From: a virus
Strand: one strand, 5' to 3'
DNA length: 24,233 nucleotides
IMG/VR virus record: IMGVR_UViG_3300028840_003252
Location: 1-24,233 of that record
The notes under the pieces were generated by a model that did no database searches, was not told the DNA's origin, and saw nothing but the letters and a program-made list of their open reading frames with translations. Each line of letters opens with the position of its first letter. Within the stretch, counting starts at the first letter, position 1. A program made the position numbers and the translations under genes. Positions 14,856-21,262 of the stretch are shown piece after piece.

Positions 14856-15872
14856 TTAAGTAACTTCGGTTTCTGTTTCATCGAGCATCTCGGCCTTATA
14901 AACCGGAATGCCTCTGAACACCGTAATATTTCCGCCCCATACGTTATCCGGAAGATAACGCACATTGGTTTTGTCCTTGGCCCGAATGTCGAGATACTCT
15001 TTAACACTTGCAGATACCAACATTACCGTACCGGGAGCCGCCCCGCCGCTCGGAAGCCTGTTAATCATCCTGATGGCATTGTCCTCATCAAAGATATTAG
15101 ACGAGCCGGTTACTTCGATATTAGCCAACCTCTGAACGCATCGCTCGTCTTTGACCACAAGGCCCATATACCAAGCGAAATGAGTTCTCAGGACTTCCAT
15201 GTATTTTGGTGTAGCTAAAGTGTTTGTGTTGGCGGTATGCTTTCCGAGATCTTCAATATGAAGACCGCCCGGAAGGTTTTTAGGATAGATCCCGAAAACC
15301 TTATTTTTCCCGAGCTCAAGAATCCATACGCTCGTTGTGTCACCGCCGGAACCGCCTTGATCCAATACGTGAGGCTGCCACGTGGTATCACCGTTTGGAT
15401 AACGATCAATCTCGTTAAACCGTACCGCCAGTCCGTTAAACGCAGCAGGATCAGAAGCCAGAGAACCATAAAGAATAAGATCTTCCATTTTCTGAGTCAA
15501 GCCCTCGACCTTGGCCTGATCTTCGTCCTGCCTCCATGCGTTAGGATCGTTCTGAATTTTCCAAAGCGCATAATCAACCTCGGAATAATCTTCCACCATG
15601 GCGATCGGATCGGTGAACGGTGTTTTATGAGATGCGGAAAGGACAACACCCTCATTGAACCGCCTGGTTCCAGGTGTCGGGATATATGTCCTTCGAGCAT
15701 CGATGTTGGACATTATTTGATTACTTGCGACCATTGGAAGCAACCTTATAAGAGGACACTTCCGCGCAAGAATATTTGCAGCCCATATATACTGAGCCTG
15801 TGCATCTAAGGATGTGTAGGAATTAACCACATCCATAAGAGTGTAATATCCTAAAAGGTCTGTTGAGGCCAT
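14856..15872 (-). CDS. Major capsid protein (epsilon15 / BPP-1 type)
   Basis: I took the ATG at 15872 (338 aa, MASTDLLGYYTLMDVVNSY), with AAAGGAG well placed upstream. The longer frame to 15932 would run through the structured RNA element and lacks a start signal. Sequence hallmarks are ILARKCPLIRLLPMVASNQI, RRTYIPTPGTRRFNEGV, ALWKIQNDPNAWRQDEDQA, MEDLILYGSLASDPAAFNGL, and late GAAPGTVMLVSASVKEYLDI. Length and pattern agree with the roughly 330-residue HK97-fold coat proteins of epsilon15-like phages. Scaffold lies upstream and cement protein downstream, the usual order. The conserved RNA element in front of it suggests special control of this highest-demand product. Confidence 0.92.
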   Translation of the reverse strand: MASTDLLGYYTLMDVVNSYTSLDAQAQYIWAANILARKCPLIRLLPMVASNQIMSNIDARRTYIPTPGTRRFNEGVVLSASHKTPFTDPIAMVEDYSEVDYALWKIQNDPNAWRQDEDQAKVEGLTQKMEDLILYGSLASDPAAFNGLAVRFNEIDRYPNGDTTWQPHVLDQGGSGGDTTSVWILELGKNKVFGIYPKNLPGGLHIEDLGKHTANTNTLATPKYMEVLRTHFAWYMGLVVKDERCVQRLANIEVTGSSNIFDEDNAIRMINRLPSGGAAPGTVMLVSASVKEYLDIRAKDKTNVRYLPDNVWGGNITVFRGIPVYKAEMLDETETEVT

Positions 15873-15891: not shown

Positions 15892-15988
15892 GGGCAACAA
15901 AAAAGGGGCAAACAGATTGAGTGGGTGAGCACTCACCTGCTGCCCCTTAGTTTTTTTGCTGTCCTCTACTGGCCGGTAGAGTTAGCCC
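15892..15988 (-). promoter_or_regulatory. Structured RNA element, copy B, leader of major capsid gene
   Basis: This is a 97-base leader between the scaffold stop and the capsid start. In coding-strand order it has GGGCTAACT, a hairpin CTCTAC-loop-GTAGAG, the block AGGACAGCAA, then AAGGGGCA pairing with TGCCCCTT. That outer stem encloses the hairpin GGTGAGTGCTCACC. A U-run and TTGTTGCCC follow. The same blocks in the same order occur at 19167-19270. The outer stem plus U-run resembles an intrinsic terminator embedded in a larger fold. GGGC and GCCC at the two ends can also pair, as can parts of GGACAGCAA and TTGTTGCCC. It could be a regulated terminator, a processing or stability element, or a riboswitch-like leader; the class is unknown to me. 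Confidence 0.75.
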
Positions 15989-15994
15989 GAATTG

Positions 15995-16714
15995 TTATGG
16001 TTTCGGAGACTTGTCATACATCATTCCGGTTTTGCCTTCTTTTTGTTTCAAAGGCGTGCCGGGCGGAGTGGTATCATCCCCCATGGCCTTACCAATTTCA
16101 AAAAATGCTCTGATAAGGACAGGATGATTTCCCAGTCCGGTTTCATCAAGGAATGCGTCAAACTCAGCCCCCGAAAATTTTTGAAATGCACGTTTTGTGA
16201 TTTCAAGGTTTTCGTCGTAATCAGCCCCCCAATCGGTTTTAAGCTTTTCATCAGCTTCGGTCTTTGAACTTTCCGCTTTTCTATTGATCTCTTCATTCAA
16301 GCCCTGAATAAAACCGTCCCAGGCTTGAGAAATCAAAGTGGCTTGATCTTTTGATAGGTTTGCCTTGTGGAAGGTGTCTCTCGCCCAATTAGTCATAGCC
16401 TCATCGTGCTCGACACCCTCTCCTTTTGGAAATTCGTAATCCTCCGCCTTTTCTGGAACGCCTAAAGCTTTAAAGAATGCTGATTTTTCCTCCGGTGTGG
16501 ATTGCTCAGTCAACTTGGGGATATAATCCTTGGTGATACTTTCCTCAAAGGTTGTAACTTTCCCCTGAAGTTCATTCACCCTCCCATCAAGCTCACTGGC
16601 CTTCCCCACAGTGTCGAGATGTGCTTTTGCAAAATCTCCAATAGTCTCGAATGAGGTAAAAGCTTCGTTCTCTTTCAGGTCGTCCGGTAACTGTGCCATC
16701 CATTCACCCGCCAT
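15995..16714 (-). CDS. Capsid scaffolding protein
   Basis: The product has 239 acidic, helical residues. It starts GEWMAQLPDDLKENEAFTSF, the W-(x)n-LPDDLK pattern common in podovirus scaffolds. A coiled coil follows at about residues 37-62 (ELDGRVNELQGKVTTFEESI). Further pieces are PEEKSAFFKALGVPEKAEDY, DTFHKANLSKDQATLISQAW and NHPVLIRAFFEIGKAMGDD, all familiar from scaffold proteins of this group. The C-terminus is disordered (DTTPPGTPLKQKEG). It directs procapsid assembly and is lost or degraded on maturation. The AAAGGAG site is clear. The gene is followed by the RNA element and then the coat gene. Confidence 0.88.
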   Translation of the reverse strand: MAGEWMAQLPDDLKENEAFTSFETIGDFAKAHLDTVGKASELDGRVNELQGKVTTFEESITKDYIPKLTEQSTPEEKSAFFKALGVPEKAEDYEFPKGEGVEHDEAMTNWARDTFHKANLSKDQATLISQAWDGFIQGLNEEINRKAESSKTEADEKLKTDWGADYDENLEITKRAFQKFSGAEFDAFLDETGLGNHPVLIRAFFEIGKAMGDDTTPPGTPLKQKEGKTGMMYDKSPKP

Positions 16715-16728
16715 AATCTATACTCCTT

Positions 16729-16959
16729 TCACTCTTTTGGTGAGTTTTTATATTCCATCTTGGCATTAGCTATGCGCTGCATAGCCTCTGCTTTGGCCTT
16801 TTGATCTTCAGCTATTTTCTTAGCAACTTCTTGTGCCATCTTAAATCTTTCTGGGTCCGCCTTTATGACTTCTGCCTCTGTAAGAGTGTGTGCATCATTT
16901 TCAGCCATCCACTCTTTTTCTTCCTCTGTTTTATCCGGCATTGCTACTGTGTCTGTCAT
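16729..16959 (-). CDS. Small charged phage protein upstream of scaffold
   Basis: The product has 76 residues, almost entirely helical and Glu/Lys-rich (TEEEKEWMAENDAHTLTEAE, then MAQEVAKKIAEDQKAKAEAM). Its ATG overlaps the stop of the 49-aa gene as ATGA and uses the ribosome site AAGGAAG, in a 20-base context identical to that of the tail-fibre gene. It lies directly before the scaffold gene, so a scaffold cofactor or minor head protein is plausible. No family is recognised. Confidence 0.75.
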   Translation of the reverse strand: MTDTVAMPDKTEEEKEWMAENDAHTLTEAEVIKADPERFKMAQEVAKKIAEDQKAKAEAMQRIANAKMEYKNSPKE

Positions 16960-17105
16960 TGTTTCTTCCTTTTTCTTTTACGCAATTCAGCCCCCTTGAC
17001 CTTTCCCGCATTAATAGAGGCATAAAAAACTTCTTCGCCCTTTTCTTTGCCGAAATGCCTTTTCATTTCAGTAAGTACGGTTTTTCCTTTTTTAGTCAGT
17101 GGCAT
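16956..17105 (-). CDS. Very small basic phage protein (49 aa)
   Basis: This frame reads MPLTKKGKTVLTEMKRHFGK, continues through GEEVFYASINAGKVKGAEL and ends in a strongly basic tail RKRKRKKQ. The pattern MPLTKKGK...MK..(F/Y)G..KG..VFYAS.N.G...G is a very common tiny protein of podoviruses and other phages, found near portal, scaffold and capsid genes and without known function. The start is two bases after the stop of the one-helix membrane protein gene, with GAGAGG ahead. The stop overlaps the next ATG (ATGA). The basic tail suggests contact with DNA or with the acidic scaffold. Confidence 0.85.
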   Translation of the reverse strand: MPLTKKGKTVLTEMKRHFGKEKGEEVFYASINAGKVKGAELRKRKRKKQ

Positions 17106-17107
17106 TT

Positions 17108-17341
17108 TTAATCCCTCTCTATGTGCTCCATATCTCCCGATTTACTTGAGCCTAAAAGCACTTTTTTTAAATCGACCTTGCCATCCTCATATACTTTCAG
17201 CCTATACTCAACTGTAAGCGGAGGATGTTTTTTAATAGATGTCTGGATTTTGTCCGATACTAACGCGAACATTATAAATCCGAACAAAACGCCAAGCATT
17301 CCAACTAAAAACAATGCATTAATCTGCGACTTCTCTGACAC
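17108..17341 (-). CDS. Small one-helix membrane protein
   Basis: The product has 77 residues. It starts at a GTG with GGAGG nine bases upstream and overlaps the O-antigen-polymerase-like gene by 23 bases. A single hydrophobic segment (about residues 9-29, ALFLVGMLGVLFGFIMFALV) is followed by a charged tail of about 48 residues (SDKIQTSIKKHPPLTVEYRL). Tight coupling to the preceding membrane protein suggests a joint role at the inner membrane. It could be a polymerase regulator, a superinfection-exclusion protein or a holin-like protein; none has motif support. One transmembrane segment with a short N-terminus would also fit a pinholin or spanin-like part, but no lysis partner is nearby. Confidence 0.75.
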   Translation of the reverse strand: MSEKSQINALFLVGMLGVLFGFIMFALVSDKIQTSIKKHPPLTVEYRLKVYEDGKVDLKKVLLGSSKSGDMEHIERD

Positions 17342-18422
17342 GAAGCTGTACCTCCAAAATTGCCAGCCATAAAATGATAAGCATTCCGTTTATTGCGTTC
17401 ATTCTAAAAGCTGAATTGGCGATACACACGCCGATTACAGCACCGAGAGATGAAAGCGAAATTATACAATGTCTGGGAATTTTAAAATCTCTGATTGTTA
17501 ATTCTCTCGCTCTTAAAATCACACTTATTAAAAAATTTACAGTTATGAAAATCGAAACAATTCCCATTTCGATATAGTTTTGAATAAAAGTATTGTGTAG
17601 CCTTATAATTCCTTTAAAAATAGGCTTTACTTTTATTACGTCTTGATAAATCTCGGTCCATCTGCCAAGACCGATACCCAAAAGGTAAGTTTTATGATGA
17701 ACTGATAACTTTACAGCCTCGGTCCATATATTTAAGCGCCTACTGATATCCGGGGCATCTATAAAAAGCGTATAAAATATAAGACCTGAAAATATTAATA
17801 CAGGCGGCCAAAATTTATACCCGTTCAGCCCTGCATAGATTATAAACGCAAGACATAGCCCGACAACACCCCCAAAAGACTTGCTTAATATTAATCCGAC
17901 AACAGGGATCAATATAAAAAAAAGCCAGCCTTTCCGAAAAAACGCCGGAGCGCAAAGAGCCATAAGTGCACTTGATTCATTAGGGTTTGCGGTTAAGCCC
18001 GTTGGAAACCTCCATTTCACAATAAAAGCCTCGAAAAACAGGATGTATAAATGAAGCATGGCAACAATACATAAGGCATCAAATATGCGTTCACAGTTCT
18101 GGCATTTTAAAACGATAACAGAATAAAACAGGCAGCCCACTGTTATGTTTATCAACACCAAATGAGATTGCATGGTGTTTAATTTACCGGTATATAAAAA
18201 TGCCGGCAGAGAATGAGAAATTAACGCCAGCAATAAAAACACTGCTACCCATTTGTTCACGTTCTCATATAAAAAGATCGCAAAAACGAGTAGGGATGCA
18301 CAAACAACCATGAACTCAAAAAGAGCCCTCATGTTCTTTGCAGGAAAATGGATAAATGCAATCATTAAAACGATAGAAGCAATTACCCATTGCCATTTAT
18401 TGTTTCGCTGTGTAAACTCCAT
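17319..18422 (-). CDS. O-antigen polymerase / ligase-like membrane protein (Wzy_C type)
   Basis: I chose the ATG at 18422 (367 aa), preceded by GAAGGG. About ten hydrophobic segments span the chain. Family motifs are TGLTANPNESSALMALCAP (about 141-159), LSKSFGGVVGL (179-189, the usual Ser/Thr-Gly-Gly segment), RRLNIWTEAVKL (228-239), GIGLGRW (249-255) and HNTFIQNYIEMGIVS (276-290). The Arg (about 229) and His (276) in the last loop correspond to residues thought important in the WaaL/Wzy superfamily. Such enzymes polymerise or transfer O-antigen units at the periplasmic face of the inner membrane. Phage D3 and epsilon15 use a phage polymerase to change host serotype, so serotype conversion or receptor masking is a reasonable inference. 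It sits unusually between portal and scaffold genes and overlaps both neighbours. Confidence 0.85.
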   Translation of the reverse strand: MEFTQRNNKWQWVIASIVLMIAFIHFPAKNMRALFEFMVVCASLLVFAIFLYENVNKWVAVFLLLALISHSLPAFLYTGKLNTMQSHLVLINITVGCLFYSVIVLKCQNCERIFDALCIVAMLHLYILFFEAFIVKWRFPTGLTANPNESSALMALCAPAFFRKGWLFFILIPVVGLILSKSFGGVVGLCLAFIIYAGLNGYKFWPPVLIFSGLIFYTLFIDAPDISRRLNIWTEAVKLSVHHKTYLLGIGLGRWTEIYQDVIKVKPIFKGIIRLHNTFIQNYIEMGIVSIFITVNFLISVILRARELTIRDFKIPRHCIISLSSLGAVIGVCIANSAFRMNAINGMLIILWLAILEVQLRVREVAD

Positions 18423-19146
18423 CAAAACCCTTCAACTCTAAATTGGCCGTTGCGTGAGTTGTGGCATTAAACACTTCGATGGTATAAAAATGCCCCGCTG
18501 TCATTGCGGCAATTCCTGTGGCATCCAAGGTCAAAGTCAGGACATCGCATTTGACATCAAGGGATGCCTCGGTTGATGTAACTGTGCTCTGGCCTATCTC
18601 AGCGGCATCAAACGCTGTGCCATCGGCATTGTCCCAAAGCATCCAATCCAGTTTTGTGCTTGTACCGTCAGCGGTATTAGACGAAATCAGGGCATAAAAA
18701 ACCAGCGCCGTATCAGCAACATAGTCCGGTGGCAGCCTAAAGGTTTTTTGAATGCCCGCGGTTTCTCCCGAGTTGTCCCAGATAATAGCCGGGATATTAT
18801 CAGCAGTTCCCATCTCCGGCGCTGAAGCATCGTCAATGTCGTCGGCTGAATCAACTACCCAGCCGGCCAAGCCTCCGCCGATACCAGGAAGTGGCCTTGT
18901 CACATTGGCAATTTCACCGGCCCCCACTTTTTCAGCCGGAAGTATGACATCAGTGTTGACGGTCAACGTATTAATGTTTGCGGTATTCCACGGAGCATCC
19001 GAATTACCCAAACATCCGACACTGGGACGATCCGGATTTTCGCATCTGCCTACGGTCCCTCCGCAACCGTACCCAGACGCATAAGCCATGCCAGCAGTCA
19101 TTAAAACGATCAAAATTGCCACTAAAACTTTCTTAAAAATCTTCAT
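18397..19146 (-). CDS. Secreted beta-rich protein upstream of O-antigen gene
   Basis: I used the ATG at 19146 (249 aa) because a classical signal peptide starts there (MKIFKKVLVAILIVLMTAGM then AYA-SG) and a GGAGGAAAGG site precedes it. The longer frame would run through the RNA element. The mature part begins with a Cys/Gly-rich stretch (SGYGCGGTVGRCENPDRPS, then GCLGNSD). It continues as an acidic beta domain (WVVDSADDIDDASAPEMG, FRLPPDYVADTALVFYALIS, LDWMLWDNADGTAF) and ends LELKGFDGVYTAKQ. The beta domain resembles decoration or fibre-type phage domains, but the leader implies export. The stop overlaps the polymerase-like gene by 26 bases, so the two are probably translated together. Function unknown. 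Confidence 0.82.
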   Translation of the reverse strand: MKIFKKVLVAILIVLMTAGMAYASGYGCGGTVGRCENPDRPSVGCLGNSDAPWNTANINTLTVNTDVILPAEKVGAGEIANVTRPLPGIGGGLAGWVVDSADDIDDASAPEMGTADNIPAIIWDNSGETAGIQKTFRLPPDYVADTALVFYALISSNTADGTSTKLDWMLWDNADGTAFDAAEIGQSTVTSTEASLDVKCDVLTLTLDATGIAAMTAGHFYTIEVFNATTHATANLELKGFDGVYTAKQ

Positions 19147-19166
19147 TTTCCTTTCCTCCGGTTTCC

Positions 19167-19270
19167 GGGCAACAAAAAAAGGAGCGAAGTGTAAGCCGAT
19201 AAATCGGGTGTGAGCCTCACACTTGCTCCTTAAATTGCTGTCCTTTGGGGAGCTACCCCTCAGTAAGCCC
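19167..19270 (-). promoter_or_regulatory. Structured RNA element, copy A, leader of secreted-protein / O-antigen cassette
   Basis: This is a 104-base leader. In coding-strand order it has GGGCTTACT, a hairpin GGGG-TAGCT-CCCC, then AAAGGACAGCAA. AAGGAGC pairs with GCTCCTT and is followed by a U-run and TTGTTGCCC. Inside the outer stem lie GTGTGAGGCTCACAC and CCGATTTATCGG. Alternatively AAGTGTGAG can pair with CTTACACTT to extend the outer stem, so two mutually exclusive folds exist. Compared with copy B (15892-15988), the outer stem changes AAGGAGC/GCTCCTT to AAGGGGC/GCCCCTT, a compensated pair. The first hairpin is conserved in shape but not in sequence. Confidence 0.75.
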
Positions 19271-19280
19271 AAGTTTTATT

Positions 19281-19550
19281 TTATTCTAAACCCTTCTTTA
19301 AAAGATCTTCTTCTTCCTGTTCTTTCCCTTTTGAAGACACTCCCGCAAGCGATTGAACAACCTCCAAAAGAGTATCTTCGGCAAAAATACCGCATTTATG
19401 TAAAATTGCTGTTCCCACGTTGTTTTCGGATACCTGGACCTTGTTATCAGGGTCAAGCATACATCCAAAATGACACGTGGTTAAAATATCAGCCAACACC
19501 TCAAGGCCGATGGGAGAATTTAAAAAAACTGTTCGGTATTTATCTTTCAC
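19281..19550 (-). CDS. Small portal-linked phage protein, possibly Bbp19-like
   Basis: The product has 89 residues and starts at a GTG that overlaps the portal stop as GTGA. It reads KYRTVFLNSPIGLEVLADIL at the N-terminus, then ENNVGTAILHKCGI, and a Glu/Lys-rich C-terminus. The Y-R-x-V-F-(x)n-G-x-x-V-L-x-D-(I/L)-L start is the pattern of a small protein encoded after the portal in BPP-1-like phages (Bbp19-type). The match is from memory and moderate. Its role is unknown; association with the portal vertex is inferred from gene order and coupling. Confidence 0.75.
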   Translation of the reverse strand: MKDKYRTVFLNSPIGLEVLADILTTCHFGCMLDPDNKVQVSENNVGTAILHKCGIFAEDTLLEVVQSLAGVSSKGKEQEEEDLLKKGLE

Positions 19551-21262
19551 TCTTCTTTATATCCCATCATTTCACCGAGCGGGCTATCAGGGGAAACCTC
19601 TTTTCCAGCAGCCGGGGCCGATCTTGCGGCTTTTTCCGCGATAGCAATTTCCTCCATTAACTCTTGTTTTTGTTGTCTCAACTGTCTAATCTTTTTAATC
19701 TTATTCGGTGAATTCATGGCCTTCTGTGGAAATCCCCTGGAAATCAGAAGTTCTTTGCCAGCCTCATCAGGATTGATAAGATCAAGAATTTCTGGAAATA
19801 TCTCGGATATCCCGCCAATTGCATCAAGCCCCTGAGTAATACCCTGAGACTTAAAAAGTTTTTTCTGAGCCTGTGCCAGCGGTCCTAAATATTCGGTTTC
19901 GATATCGCCCCCGGCAAGATCAAGTAGAATGTCCGGCGGTCTTGGAATTCTTTTTGCTCTATACTCAATGTGAAACACTTTGTCATGTGCAGGATTTAAG
20001 AACTCTGTTTCAAACTTTCCTATTCTTAATCCTAAGATCGCGGCTTTTTCTCCGCCCATCTCGATAACCTGGGTTGCTGTAAGCTCCACTTTCTGAGCAA
20101 CAGCTTGTGACAGCATAAGAAAGAAGTCCACATGAAAATGATCCTTGATCGCGTCTCGATATCTGTCCTGCATCTCTATCCCATACGGAAGTTGAATACC
20201 GGTAACAAGCGGTTTTGGAGCTCGGTCCATGGTTTTAACCCATGTCCAGCCTTTAGGTCCGATATTGACTTGCCCTCTCAAATCTGAAGTGCCGACCATT
20301 GGAGGCTCAACCATTTTGTGTCCGGCTATTAAATTCGTCCTTCCGGCCTGATTTGCTGTCATTACATCAATAAATGCATCCCAGGCAGGAGATCGACCAT
20401 ACCACTCATCATTATTTTTTCGCCAGCGCCAGGTTAAAAATGCACTGTCATCAAATCCGGATTCAAGTAAAAGTTTATTTCCCGGCTTTAAAACCCAGAT
20501 AGAAGCATAAGGTTTATTTTTCTTGTTCAGTTTTTGAACATCATAATCTTCTCTGGGATAACACGCATGAACAACCTCCATTTCCTGATGCATGTTTTTG
20601 TCGTACTTGTCTTTAAAATTCGTATCTGCCTCTTTCATGGTTTCAAATCCGAATTTTTCTTTTAACTGTTTCAGGGTAAGTTTATAGTCTCGATAATGGG
20701 TGTCCACTTCGCCAAAATAATTCTCAGCAACATAGCACTCTCTGAAATGCGGGACCCTGAAAATAACGCGAGAATTTTTAATGTCCTCTTCAATGTTTAC
20801 GGTAACGGTTCCGACAGTCACGGCATCCCTTACGATCTCGGGGGCTATGTCGTATAAATTAGAGGCCATCAGTGCCGAATACATAGCCTCTTCAGCGTCT
20901 TCAAGCCATGCCTTGATCTCGGGTATGGAATCAACTCTTTTACCGCTCCATTGCCTCATCCCCGAATATCTGGGAAATACCATTCTCTGAGGTAGGGTAT
21001 AGGCAAACCACCTGAAAGACTTTGAAATCGTGTATCCGGTAAAACCATCGGTCAGAAGATTCGCAGCGCCCAGGGCAGTACCATCATATACTTGAGTGCC
21101 CGTTTTTTGGCCTTTCGCCTGAGTACCGTCCTTAACCTTTCTTCTGCCATGATAAATATAAGTCAGAATATCATCAATCATGCCCTCAAACGGACGGCGG
21201 ATTTCCTGAAGCACCTTTAGAGTGTTGTTGATGTCTTTTACTTTGTCTTCGTCTGACCTCAT
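19547..21262 (-). CDS. Portal (head-tail connector) protein
   Basis: The product has 571 residues, the usual size for T7/BPP-1-type connectors. Motifs of the head-tail connector family are FEGMIDDILTYIYHGRR, GTQVYDGTALGAANLLTDGF, FRWFAYTLP, EEAMYSALMASNLYDIAPE, then VRDAVTVGTVTVNIEED. In the middle are FLTWRWRKNNDEWYGRSPAW and the NIGPKGWTWVKTMDRA region, and the C-terminus is Gln/Glu-rich and helical. Twelve copies form the channel through which the terminase packages DNA and to which the tail adaptor binds. It begins three bases after the 71-aa gene and is coupled to the 89-aa gene. Confidence 0.93.
   Translation of the reverse strand: MRSDEDKVKDINNTLKVLQEIRRPFEGMIDDILTYIYHGRRKVKDGTQAKGQKTGTQVYDGTALGAANLLTDGFTGYTISKSFRWFAYTLPQRMVFPRYSGMRQWSGKRVDSIPEIKAWLEDAEEAMYSALMASNLYDIAPEIVRDAVTVGTVTVNIEEDIKNSRVIFRVPHFRECYVAENYFGEVDTHYRDYKLTLKQLKEKFGFETMKEADTNFKDKYDKNMHQEMEVVHACYPREDYDVQKLNKKNKPYASIWVLKPGNKLLLESGFDDSAFLTWRWRKNNDEWYGRSPAWDAFIDVMTANQAGRTNLIAGHKMVEPPMVGTSDLRGQVNIGPKGWTWVKTMDRAPKPLVTGIQLPYGIEMQDRYRDAIKDHFHVDFFLMLSQAVAQKVELTATQVIEMGGEKAAILGLRIGKFETEFLNPAHDKVFHIEYRAKRIPRPPDILLDLAGGDIETEYLGPLAQAQKKLFKSQGITQGLDAIGGISEIFPEILDLINPDEAGKELLISRGFPQKAMNSPNKIKKIRQLRQQKQELMEEIAIAEKAARSAPAAGKEVSPDSPLGEMMGYKEE

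Follow-up and report, generated by a model that had tools for sequence, protein, structure and literature searches.

Two copies of an intercistronic element in one phage operon

For phages of uncultured hosts, little is understood of how single virion proteins are dosed inside one long operon. An element of roughly 100 letters makes this question testable. It occurs twice in a viral record of 24,233 nucleotides (IMGVR_UViG_3300028840_003252; the whole stretch is referred to here as the window), as copy A at 19167-19270 and copy B at 15892-15988, both on the minus (coding) strand, to which all coordinates of copies and genes below refer. An earlier note on this DNA had described the two as an unrecognised structured RNA leader, and every piece that it named was located. 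Both copies contain, in order, GGGCTNACT, a hairpin (P2) of unlike sequence in the two copies, AGGACAGCAA, an outer stem, an inner GTGAG/CTCAC hairpin, a U-run and TTGTTGCCC. The compensated difference in the outer stem (AAGGAGC/GCTCCTT versus AAGGGGC/GCCCCTT) was also present. A search of the window with the pattern of the 5' half gave two occurrences, whereas 100 dinucleotide shuffles gave none, and the folding energy of each copy lay about 4.6 standard deviations under that of its own shuffles (z -4.56 and -4.59).

The copies were only partly leaders as proposed. They do lie just ahead of the next gene (20 nt for A, 19 nt for B), but they begin 10 and 6 nt past a stop codon and are thus intercistronic, and no sigma-70-like promoter site was seen within either, although the host's own sigma factors may differ. 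The gene after copy B (14856-15872) encodes the major capsid protein, as the note had stated (phrog_212, E 3.4e-44), and that before it (15995-16714) is scaffold/protease-like (phrog_3742 and phrog_458; "scaffold" is inferred from position). The O-antigen assignment downstream of copy A was less secure. The first gene there (18397-19146, 249 aa) has a signal-peptide-like start, judged by eye, and no family match, and the second has a weak match to Wzy_C O-antigen ligase (E 3.6e-4, 20.8 bits), below the Pfam cut-off of 31.7. Upstream of copy A lies the portal (head-tail adaptor) gene (19547-21262; phrog_332, E 1.2e-100), with a small ORF (19281-19550) between the two. Across the region, promoter-like sites numbered 12 against 9.5 in shuffles, and a simple terminator scan gave 6 sites against 5.7. 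The U-run hairpins of A and B were missing from its list, apparently because the scan tolerates no bulges. A tRNA search found none.

A family of related elements in viral contigs

Comparison of the whole window with Rfam 15 (4227 families, E up to 5) gave no match on A or B, in agreement with the claim that the structure was unrecognised and with no assignment to a plain terminator family with unconserved flanks. With B alone and locus L165 alone (E up to 10), the best scores were 18.7 bits (mir-962, threshold 70) and 18.0 bits (mir-5918, threshold 69). No description of the element was found in the open-licence literature, where the matches listed for its motif letters contained only the nine-letter word GGACAGCAA.

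Searches beyond the two copies identified nine further members in other viral contigs, giving a family of at least 11 distinct members, together with one divergent relative (L128) in which the U-run is interrupted (UUUCUUUUUG) and the long P3 helix retained. A covariance model (R1) was built from six seed members, including B (81.7 bits), and the five members outside the seed scored as follows: A 54.0, L167 45.1, L181 61.0, L182 82.4 and L200 62.4 bits. Scores of all 11 members ranged from 45.1 to 91.8 bits. The motif GACAGCAA was present in 11/11 members, but most scans demanded all or most of it, so part of the invariance of the conserved pieces reflects the search patterns.

The first viral scan returned eight members or near-identical copies of the window elements (one end-clipped) among 119 matches listed, and the rest appeared by eye to be mostly coding sequence. 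In a scan of 974 kb of phage loci by architecture alone, every match was a member or the divergent relative. L031 and L183 (10.2 bits) were rejected as members, and L200 alone was accepted from 22 new loci of a later scan. A second model, R2, scored L185 at 21.6 bits (E 0.0037) and L193 at 14.3 bits among 94 other loci; L185, which has no GGGCUAA part and scores 18.0 bits with R1, was left out as borderline. Antisense matches at the members' own sites were weak (12.6-22.3 bits) and arise because the members contain inverted repeats. Against named phages, blastn with copy B gave three short matches (31 bases, E 0.4). In a bacterial genome collection the exact pattern GGACAGCAAN{32,62}TTTTTGTTGCCC occurred in four stretches, none of which proved on inspection to be a member, and R1 gave one weak match in those four genomes (18.1 bits, E 0.58). 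R1 also found no match in two phyla (398 and 395 genomes), a weak negative given that only ten candidates were scored per genome and no positive control was included.

A shared three-way junction

The members share a predicted three-way junction formed by P1 (GGGC/GCCC), UAA, the variable hairpin P2, GAC, and P3, which has an AGCAA/UUGUU base, a GC hairpin and a run of six or seven U. In copy A, the P1 5' strand GGGC (19267-19270) pairs with 19167-19170, P2 spans 19243-19263 with the loop UAGCU (palindromic AGCU), and GACAGCAA (19235-19242) supplies the junction GAC and the P3-base 5' strand AGCAA. The P3 hairpin (19181-19234) is followed by U7 (19174-19180) and by GUUGCCC (19167-19173), which holds the P1 3' strand and most of the P3-base 3' strand. 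Copy B is laid out alike, with GGGC (15985-15988, partner 15892-15895), P2 (15964-15981; loop CGGCCA, containing GGCC, or CCGG if the closing base is counted), GACAGCAA (15956-15963), P3 (15905-15955), U6 (15899-15904) and GUUGCCC (15892-15898).

Of 219 pair cells, 96.3% were paired and 8 unpaired. Two-sided changes affected 8/20 pairs and 23 cells, against shuffled means of 4.3 and 6.6, counts that were matched by 1/500 and 0/500 shuffles respectively. The covariation score was 0.338, compared with 0.150 in shuffles (reached in 0/500), and the highest values in slid controls were 6 pairs, 10 cells and a score of 0.134. Covariation was seen at all six modelled pairs of P2, bearing out the claim that the first hairpin keeps its shape while its sequence differs, and at one pair of P1, whose pair set becomes UGGC/GCCA in L181. 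Since three of the four P1 pairs and all five P3-base pairs are invariant, pairing there rests on complementarity and this one covarying pair. The junction fold was the predicted minimum in 8/11 members and within 2.3 kcal/mol of it in the other three, and the sense strand folded better than the antisense strand in 11/11. Two copies alone do not amount to the direct evidence for selection on structure that had been claimed, but eleven members with pairs changing on both sides support it much better. The note's central idea, a selected RNA structure that had not been recognised, has withstood the tests run, and none of the outcomes that the note had named as refuting it came about. Structure and recurrence are thus computational results; function is what we infer from them.

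A small conserved core ringed by variable helices would also suit a self-cleaving ribozyme built on a three-way-junction core. We give this almost no credence, as Rfam, ribozymes included, gave no match, and pairing and the U-run account for most conserved letters. A retron, HDV-like or hammerhead RNA was rejected on the same Rfam result and because the features of these RNAs do not fit. The junction letters, UAA 5' and GAC 3' of P2, occur in 10/11 members (copy A has UUA) and resemble, by letters only, the UAA/GAN internal-loop motif reportedly described by Lee, Gutell and Russell in 2006. A T7-like promoter start at GGG was discarded, as L181 and L200 do not keep the AT-rich sequence upstream of it. 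PF00940 (T7-type RNA polymerase) was found in 0/9 records, and likewise in none of the control genomes.

A terminator-like hairpin with putative decoys

A run of at least six U lies directly against the stem in 11/11 members, with a variable opposite strand, which gives each the layout of an intrinsic terminator (a GC-rich hairpin with abutting U6-7). As several scans demanded a T-run, we take as unbiased the count for A, B and the five members found by the 5' half alone, which is 7/7. The folding energy of P3 was significant in the eight members tested (P 0.0005-0.0035), and its predicted length was about 20-29 base pairs with internal loops, including an extra hairpin in five members.

The alternative longer stem that had been noted for copy A is not special to it, being an alternative pairing of the terminator arm found in 10/11 members. 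In these, the 5' arm X is followed after a spacer of 1-3 nt by a complementary segment Xc (exact arms of 5-7 nt), a putative decoy for the true partner Xc'; L167 has no clean arms. The segments lie at 19216-19222 (X), 19208-19214 (Xc), 19196-19207 (extra hairpin) and 19187-19195 (Xc') in copy A, and at 15932-15937 (X) and 15924-15929 (Xc), followed by Xc', in copy B. Shuffle tests of the arms in single members were weak (6 to 139 of 1000). Complementarity of 4 nt between the hairpin centre and the base arm was also seen in 8/11 sequences tested (ten members and L128, omitting L167), compared with 0.8 for shuffled arms and 26/110 mismatched member pairs. When the growing RNA was folded, X:Xc was the predicted minimum over some lengths in 6/11, base-arm pairing appeared in others, and at U7 the terminator hairpin was the minimum in 11/11; this argument is thermodynamic, not kinetic.

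The family, its fold, U-run, decoy complementarities, placement and sporadic distribution all come from computation. Among the functions that the earlier note had listed, a regulated terminator is the best fit. We propose, tentatively and at somewhat less than an even chance, that the element is a horizontally mobile phage RNA acting in cis. Within late operons it would be an intrinsic terminator (attenuator) with kinetic gating, and the junction would close in the RNA made by read-through. A polymerase leaving the upstream gene would make P2 and then the 5' arm of the GC-rich hairpin, which would pair first with the decoy transcribed right after it. As the true 3' arm emerged the decoy would be displaced, forming the terminator at the U-run. 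With a slow polymerase this exchange would be completed and transcription terminate, and a fast or modified polymerase would read through. No promoter was seen in the stretch that separates the element from the gene, so a transcript started at any promoter farther upstream must cross the U-run before the next virion gene is reached, and in this way the element may set that gene's level or timing. In the read-through RNA, the 3' segment UUGUUGCC(C) could take both GGGC and AGCAA, which would complete the three-way junction as a stable structure ahead of the ribosome-binding site. If gating is real, the element would be a natural protein-free terminator that senses polymerase speed or RNA concentration, and it is in any case compact, portable and sequence-defined, with clear parts.

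The element resembles known intrinsic (Rho-independent) terminators and attenuators in its GC-rich hairpin with U6-7 and its competing terminator-arm pairings. It differs in having conserved flanks that come together over the U-run to close a three-way junction, a decoy that sits inside the terminator loop, and an outer sequence common to phages with dissimilar genes. A simple attenuator needs no GGGCUAA, GACAGCAA or closing junction, so the terminator reading leaves some conserved parts unexplained, and L128, with its broken U-run and long P3, is no less compatible with a structural role.

Such a role could be intercistronic processing or stability, with P3 cut by RNase III or kept as a barrier. 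The closed junction would then give the virion-gene message a protected 5' end, and the hairpin would guard the 3' end of the upstream message. P3, by its predicted pairing, reaches the length of an RNase III site (about 20 bp or longer) and remains long in L128, and the element lies shortly before the start of genes whose products are made in many copies, capsid and tail tube among them. The intercistronic RNase III sites of T7 are likewise long imperfect hairpins between late genes; the element differs from them in its conserved sequence and in being found in phages whose genes are dissimilar. Because RNase III has no sequence specificity, the conserved GACAGCAA and U6-7 are not accounted for. 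Nor are the decoy complementarities and palindromic loops explained, and internal loops interrupt P3. We regard processing as possible but doubtful.

Palindromic loops in P2

The P2 loops, taken with one closing base on each side, contained a palindrome of at least 4 nt in 10/11 members (none in L167), compared with 3.2 expected from random loops (P 1.5e-4) and 4.4 from within-loop shuffles (P 2.5e-4). Palindromes of at least 6 nt occurred in 5/11, compared with 0.57 (0/20,000 trials) and 0.70 (P 3.5e-4). Covariation extends to the inner letters (UGAUCA, UAGCUA, UAAUUA, UCGCGA). Self-complementary hairpin loops of this kind are what kissing-loop dimers require. Two message copies might then kiss through P2, making read-through or stability depend on concentration. 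Related members have common loops, however, leaving only about six independent groups by our grouping, and together with the exception of L167 this makes dimerisation as the main function improbable.

A more ambitious, and in our judgement unlikely, reading is that the element represents a new class of RNA device. The terminator 5' arm would be complementary to three segments (its true partner and two built-in decoys), P2 would dimerise through its loops, and after read-through the flanks would switch from GCU:AGC to GGGC:GCCC and AGCAA:UUGUU. Phages would trade this self-contained gate on transcription speed or message concentration and place it before virion genes. If gating is real, the element would be a natural protein-free terminator that senses polymerase speed or RNA concentration, and it is in any case compact, portable and sequence-defined, with clear parts.

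Placement and probable movement between phages

All 11 members lie between genes and are oriented as their neighbours, 9/11 among recognisable virion genes, and the next start follows about 11-32 nt past the element in 10/11 (that of L168 judged by eye). BLAST found no protein common to the long element-bearing records G001, G002 and G003, though some proteins may be missing from the records and BLAST overlooks distant homologs. This makes a host factor likelier than a phage factor, and a ribosomal, transcription or RNA-binding protein of the host might act at the junction UAA/GAC, whose letters are conserved within variable helices, to steer read-through or translation. One such case would be nascent RNA acting on RNA polymerase, like the put RNA of phage HK022, which acts on the zinc-binding domain of the polymerase beta' subunit. 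PMC9378689 describes put as a cis-acting RNA of about 70 nt with two stem-loops, present in two copies in one phage downstream of early promoters, which needs no dedicated trans-acting protein. The element is likewise a phage RNA of similar size, putatively cis-acting, with two stem-loops, two copies in one phage and apparently no dedicated protein. No closing junction or U-run of put's own is described there, whereas the element has a terminator-like hairpin and is found among virion genes, not downstream of early promoters. P1 can form only once the U-run is passed, and we consider a host-factor operator quite unlikely.

A and B are each closer to elements of dissimilar phages than to one another, and relatives with a 72-74% identical capsid have empty sites in place of B. 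Transfer of the element from phage to phage is thus probable. A MITE-like DNA repeat, small and mobile but without function for the phage, would share this sporadic presence, and the imperfect inverted ends GGGC(U)AAC/GUUGCCC are consistent with one. The gene-oriented, intergenic position in 11/11, the covariation and G-U pairs of RNA type, and the flanks, where no target duplication was seen by eye, make it highly improbable; a classical MITE was rejected on orientation and covariation. A packaging signal was rejected because one phage has two copies, separated by 3.3 kb, and the places elsewhere are varied, and none of the findings pointed to a packaging or ligand role.

PeSL cassettes are small regulatory stem-loop units between phage genes, tied to module shuffling, with a sigma-70-like promoter inside the cassette. 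The element, too, is a stem-loop unit that has probably spread between phages, but A and B have no promoter-like site and the element has a conserved junction and virion-gene placement. PMC4503421 names PeSL as promoter-terminator cassettes of T4-like phages. The manA and wcaG motifs of cyanophages, found by metagenome comparison (PMC2864571), are structured RNAs ahead of phage genes as well, though of other genes, and the element has no Rfam match. If the gating that we tentatively favour holds, this would be a terminator that travels from phage to phage separately from the genes under its control.

The element in the window and among other phages

Both copies of the structured RNA element lie on the minus strand of the window where the earlier note had placed them, copy A at 19167-19270 (104 nt) and copy B at 15892-15988 (97 nt). 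In copy B, the 5' strand of helix P1, GGGC (15988-15985), is followed by UAA (15984-15982), hairpin P2 (15981-15964), GACAGCAA (15963-15956), the terminator-like hairpin P3 (15955-15905), U6 (15904-15899) and GUUGCCC (15898-15892); copy A has the same parts in the same order, with UUA in place of UAA, and U7. The pattern GGGCTNACTN{5,30}GGACAGCAA matched the window at A and B only, and matched 0 of 100 shuffles. Virion genes flank the two copies (terminase, portal (head-tail adaptor), a scaffold/protease-like gene, capsid and tail), and two records of about 35 kb with a capsid protein identical to the window's (G003 and G004) carry both copies at unchanged spacing.

Viral contigs were scanned for segments of the conserved sequence, and after inspection and model scoring of the matches nine more distinct elements were accepted: L170 (=L064), L167 (=L073), L165 (=L080), L168 (=L118), L166 (=L120), L169 (=L122), L181, L182 and L200. 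Counting near-identical copies of A and B as members, member stretches made up 8/119 (among the matches listed) and 7/8 of the stretches returned by the two scans not requiring the 3' part, 7/7, 9/9 and 10/31 where GGCUAA was not required, 7/8 where GACAGCAA was not required, and 6/6 in one further scan. The letters later termed conserved were partly demanded by these patterns, GACAGCAA being demanded, whole or nearly, by all scans except one. All five new members from scans not demanding the U-run/GUUGCC carry a U-run 6 or 7 letters long, and all four from scans not demanding the 5' part (L169, L181, L182, L200) have GGCUAA; in L167 the U-run is followed by a one-letter change.

With a covariance model seeded on six members (R1), the five non-seed members scored 45.1-82.4 bits. 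The comparison with Rfam proposed in the earlier note gave no matching family, and searches of an open-licence library yielded no description of the element. The family is almost certainly real, and its size is a lower bound because drifted forms escape the scans. A borderline match at L185 495-585 (18.0 bits with R1, 21.6 with a second covariance model, R2) has GACAGCAA and GGGGCTTTTTTGTTGCC, lacks the GGGCUAA part, and could represent a relic, a reduced form or a chance match. L183 2960-3240 was rejected as a chance pattern match (model score 10.2 bits); by eye it holds tRNA-like sequence and then a terminator ending TTTTTTGTTGCC.

Fold and covariation

A common fold is predicted to be possible in all 11 members: P1 GGGC/GCCC of four pairs, UAA, P2, GAC, and P3 with the base AGCAA/UUGUU and a GC hairpin, the U-run facing variable letters. 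Imposing P1 and the P3 base left the free energy minimum unchanged in 8/11 and cost 1.3 to 2.3 kcal/mol in three. Two-sided changes were seen at 8 of 20 pairs in the 11-row alignment (1/4 in P1, 1/5 in the terminator base, 0/5 in the P3 base and 6/6 in P2). The covariation score was 0.338 against 0.150 (sd 0.022) in shuffles, reached by 0/500, and at most 0.134 in structures slid along as a control, on an alignment that was fitted to the model and hence leans towards it, and whose related rows are not independent. For the first eight members it was 0.232 against 0.143 (1/500 reaching it).

In eight members, P2 and P3 segments folded better than their own dinucleotide shuffles (Fisher P 1.3e-5 and 1.4e-15, respectively), single-member P2 values being mostly weak (0.0005 to 0.60). 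Folding favoured the sense strand over the antisense in 11/11 members, and G-U made up 38/389 predicted pairs; it is thus probably the coding-strand RNA that acts.

Counting one closing base at either end, the P2 loop holds a self-complementary stretch in every member except L167. Five are of six letters (UGAUCA in L165 and L200, UAGCUA in L169, UAAUUA in L181, UCGCGA in L166); the others are GAUC (L182), AGCU (A, L170) and GGCC-type (B, L168). Against these 10/11, random loops gave an expectation of 3.2 (P 1.5e-4), with 0.57 of six letters (five reached in 0/20,000 trials), and loops shuffled within themselves 4.4 (P 2.5e-4), with 0.70 of six letters (P 3.5e-4); with loops shared between members, these statistics represent about six independent cases.

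Decoy complements and divergent relatives

The terminator 5' arm (X, 5-7 letters) is followed, 1-3 letters on, by an early decoy complement (Xc) and then by its true partner (Xc') in 10/11 members; tested singly, this was equalled by 6 to 139 of 1000 shuffled P3 segments. The hairpin centre was complementary to the arm base in 8/11 examined (10 clean members and the divergent L128), against 0.8 with shuffled arms and 26/110 mismatched member pairs. An architecture-only scan without a sequence motif (both strands of 974 kb of phage loci, counting overlaps) returned 14 rows, all members or divergent L128-type, and one row in reversed sequence; L165 and L167, with arms too short or unclean, escaped it.

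L128, a relative (capsid identity 72%), gave no match with R1 and 12.9 bits with R2 (E 0.057). The architecture-only scan detected both L128 (6917-7021) and L147 (4833-4876), each with an interrupted U-run and changed junction. The L128 form lies downstream of the portal and a small gene and upstream of the next late gene, and consists of CGGGU/GCCCG, a P2-like hairpin with a GGCC loop, GUUACGG-UG-CCGUAAC and then CACUGUGGC. Its broken U-run, and junction letters unlike those of the strict members, suggest that the family is probably wider than the strict sequence, divergent forms being missed by strict patterns.

Gene context and proposed mechanism

In 11/11 members, the closest ORF of 80 codons or more on either side runs in the element's direction; L182 and L200 also have short ORFs (56-62 codons) in reverse orientation that abut or overlap the element. 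The downstream gene encodes the capsid at copy B, a scaffold-like protein at L165, an SU10-type portal at L170, a tail tube (PF18906) at L200 and a weakly head-protease-like protein at L181, while at L166 and L168 small genes and then a portal follow. Copy A follows a portal and then a small ORF, and precedes a 249-aa gene with a signal-like start. In L182 the element has a P22-type portal on one side and, on the other, a 330-aa gene located ahead of the capsid gene. The neighbour genes tested at L167 and L169 matched no family, and a virion context there, from gene order, is only a guess. In 10/11, about 11 to 32 nt separate the element from the next start (placed by eye in L168); in L182 the distance is at least 67 nt.

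The U-run is kept while the facing strand varies, which suggests selection for its use as a termination signal. A simple terminator scan did not list A or B among its sites. A promoter scan of the region found no promoter-like site inside either copy; with the short gap to the start codon, this suggests that essential virion genes need read-through from an upstream promoter, and an always-efficient terminator at these positions would be lethal.

In growing-chain folding, which gives energies of fixed-length chains and not kinetics, a decoy hairpin preceded the terminator among the minima: X:Xc over some lengths in 6/11, and, in other members including B, L170, L166, L181 and L182, the base arm with the centre. 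The terminator hairpin is the predicted minimum in 11/11 once the U-run is made. GCU:AGC is predicted to close P2 in 10/11 prior to synthesis of GUUGCC, after which both of its strands would switch to the 3' segment. Such an order of pairings is what would be expected of a kinetically gated attenuator, which we propose tentatively as the mechanism. Attenuators are among the systems closest in kind, attenuation by the element being a prediction; put RNA and PeSL cassettes are also close in kind, but the element fails membership of either on the features tested.

Spread between phages

Copy B is absent from relatives with capsid identity up to 74%, all 21 other capsid junctions examined being empty, with several near-identical ones among them. 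R1 found nothing in 28/28 related loci (L128 and L147, with the divergent form, among them), 10/10 related records or 9/9 cultured relatives, the last in a search that matched four positive records; junctions adjoining matched genes in the cultured relatives range from overlap to 81 nt. The phages carrying the element differ. In a BLAST comparison of G001, G002 and G005-G008 with the window's phage, the long record G001 had a structural module in common with it (portal 54%, capsid 38%); G002, G006 and G008 did not exceed 24-27%, over stretches of individual proteins, and neither G005 nor G007 gave a match. In P2, A is closest to L170 (77%) and B to L168 (94%), against 43% between A and B, which suggests that the two were probably acquired separately, not by duplication.

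In several element-bearing phages, a variable block of genes that look non-structural interrupts the late structural genes (window 17108-19146; L165 7712-13257; L168 4627-8073; L200 4374-11252), with the element at its edge in three cases (A, L165, L168). The block in the window has a weak Wzy_C match; those elsewhere hold, by eye from N-terminal residues, secreted- or sugar-transfer-looking proteins, and the members of them that were searched gave no match. In the element-bearing 52 kb phage record G002, one ORF of 3837 codons spans 19704-31217.
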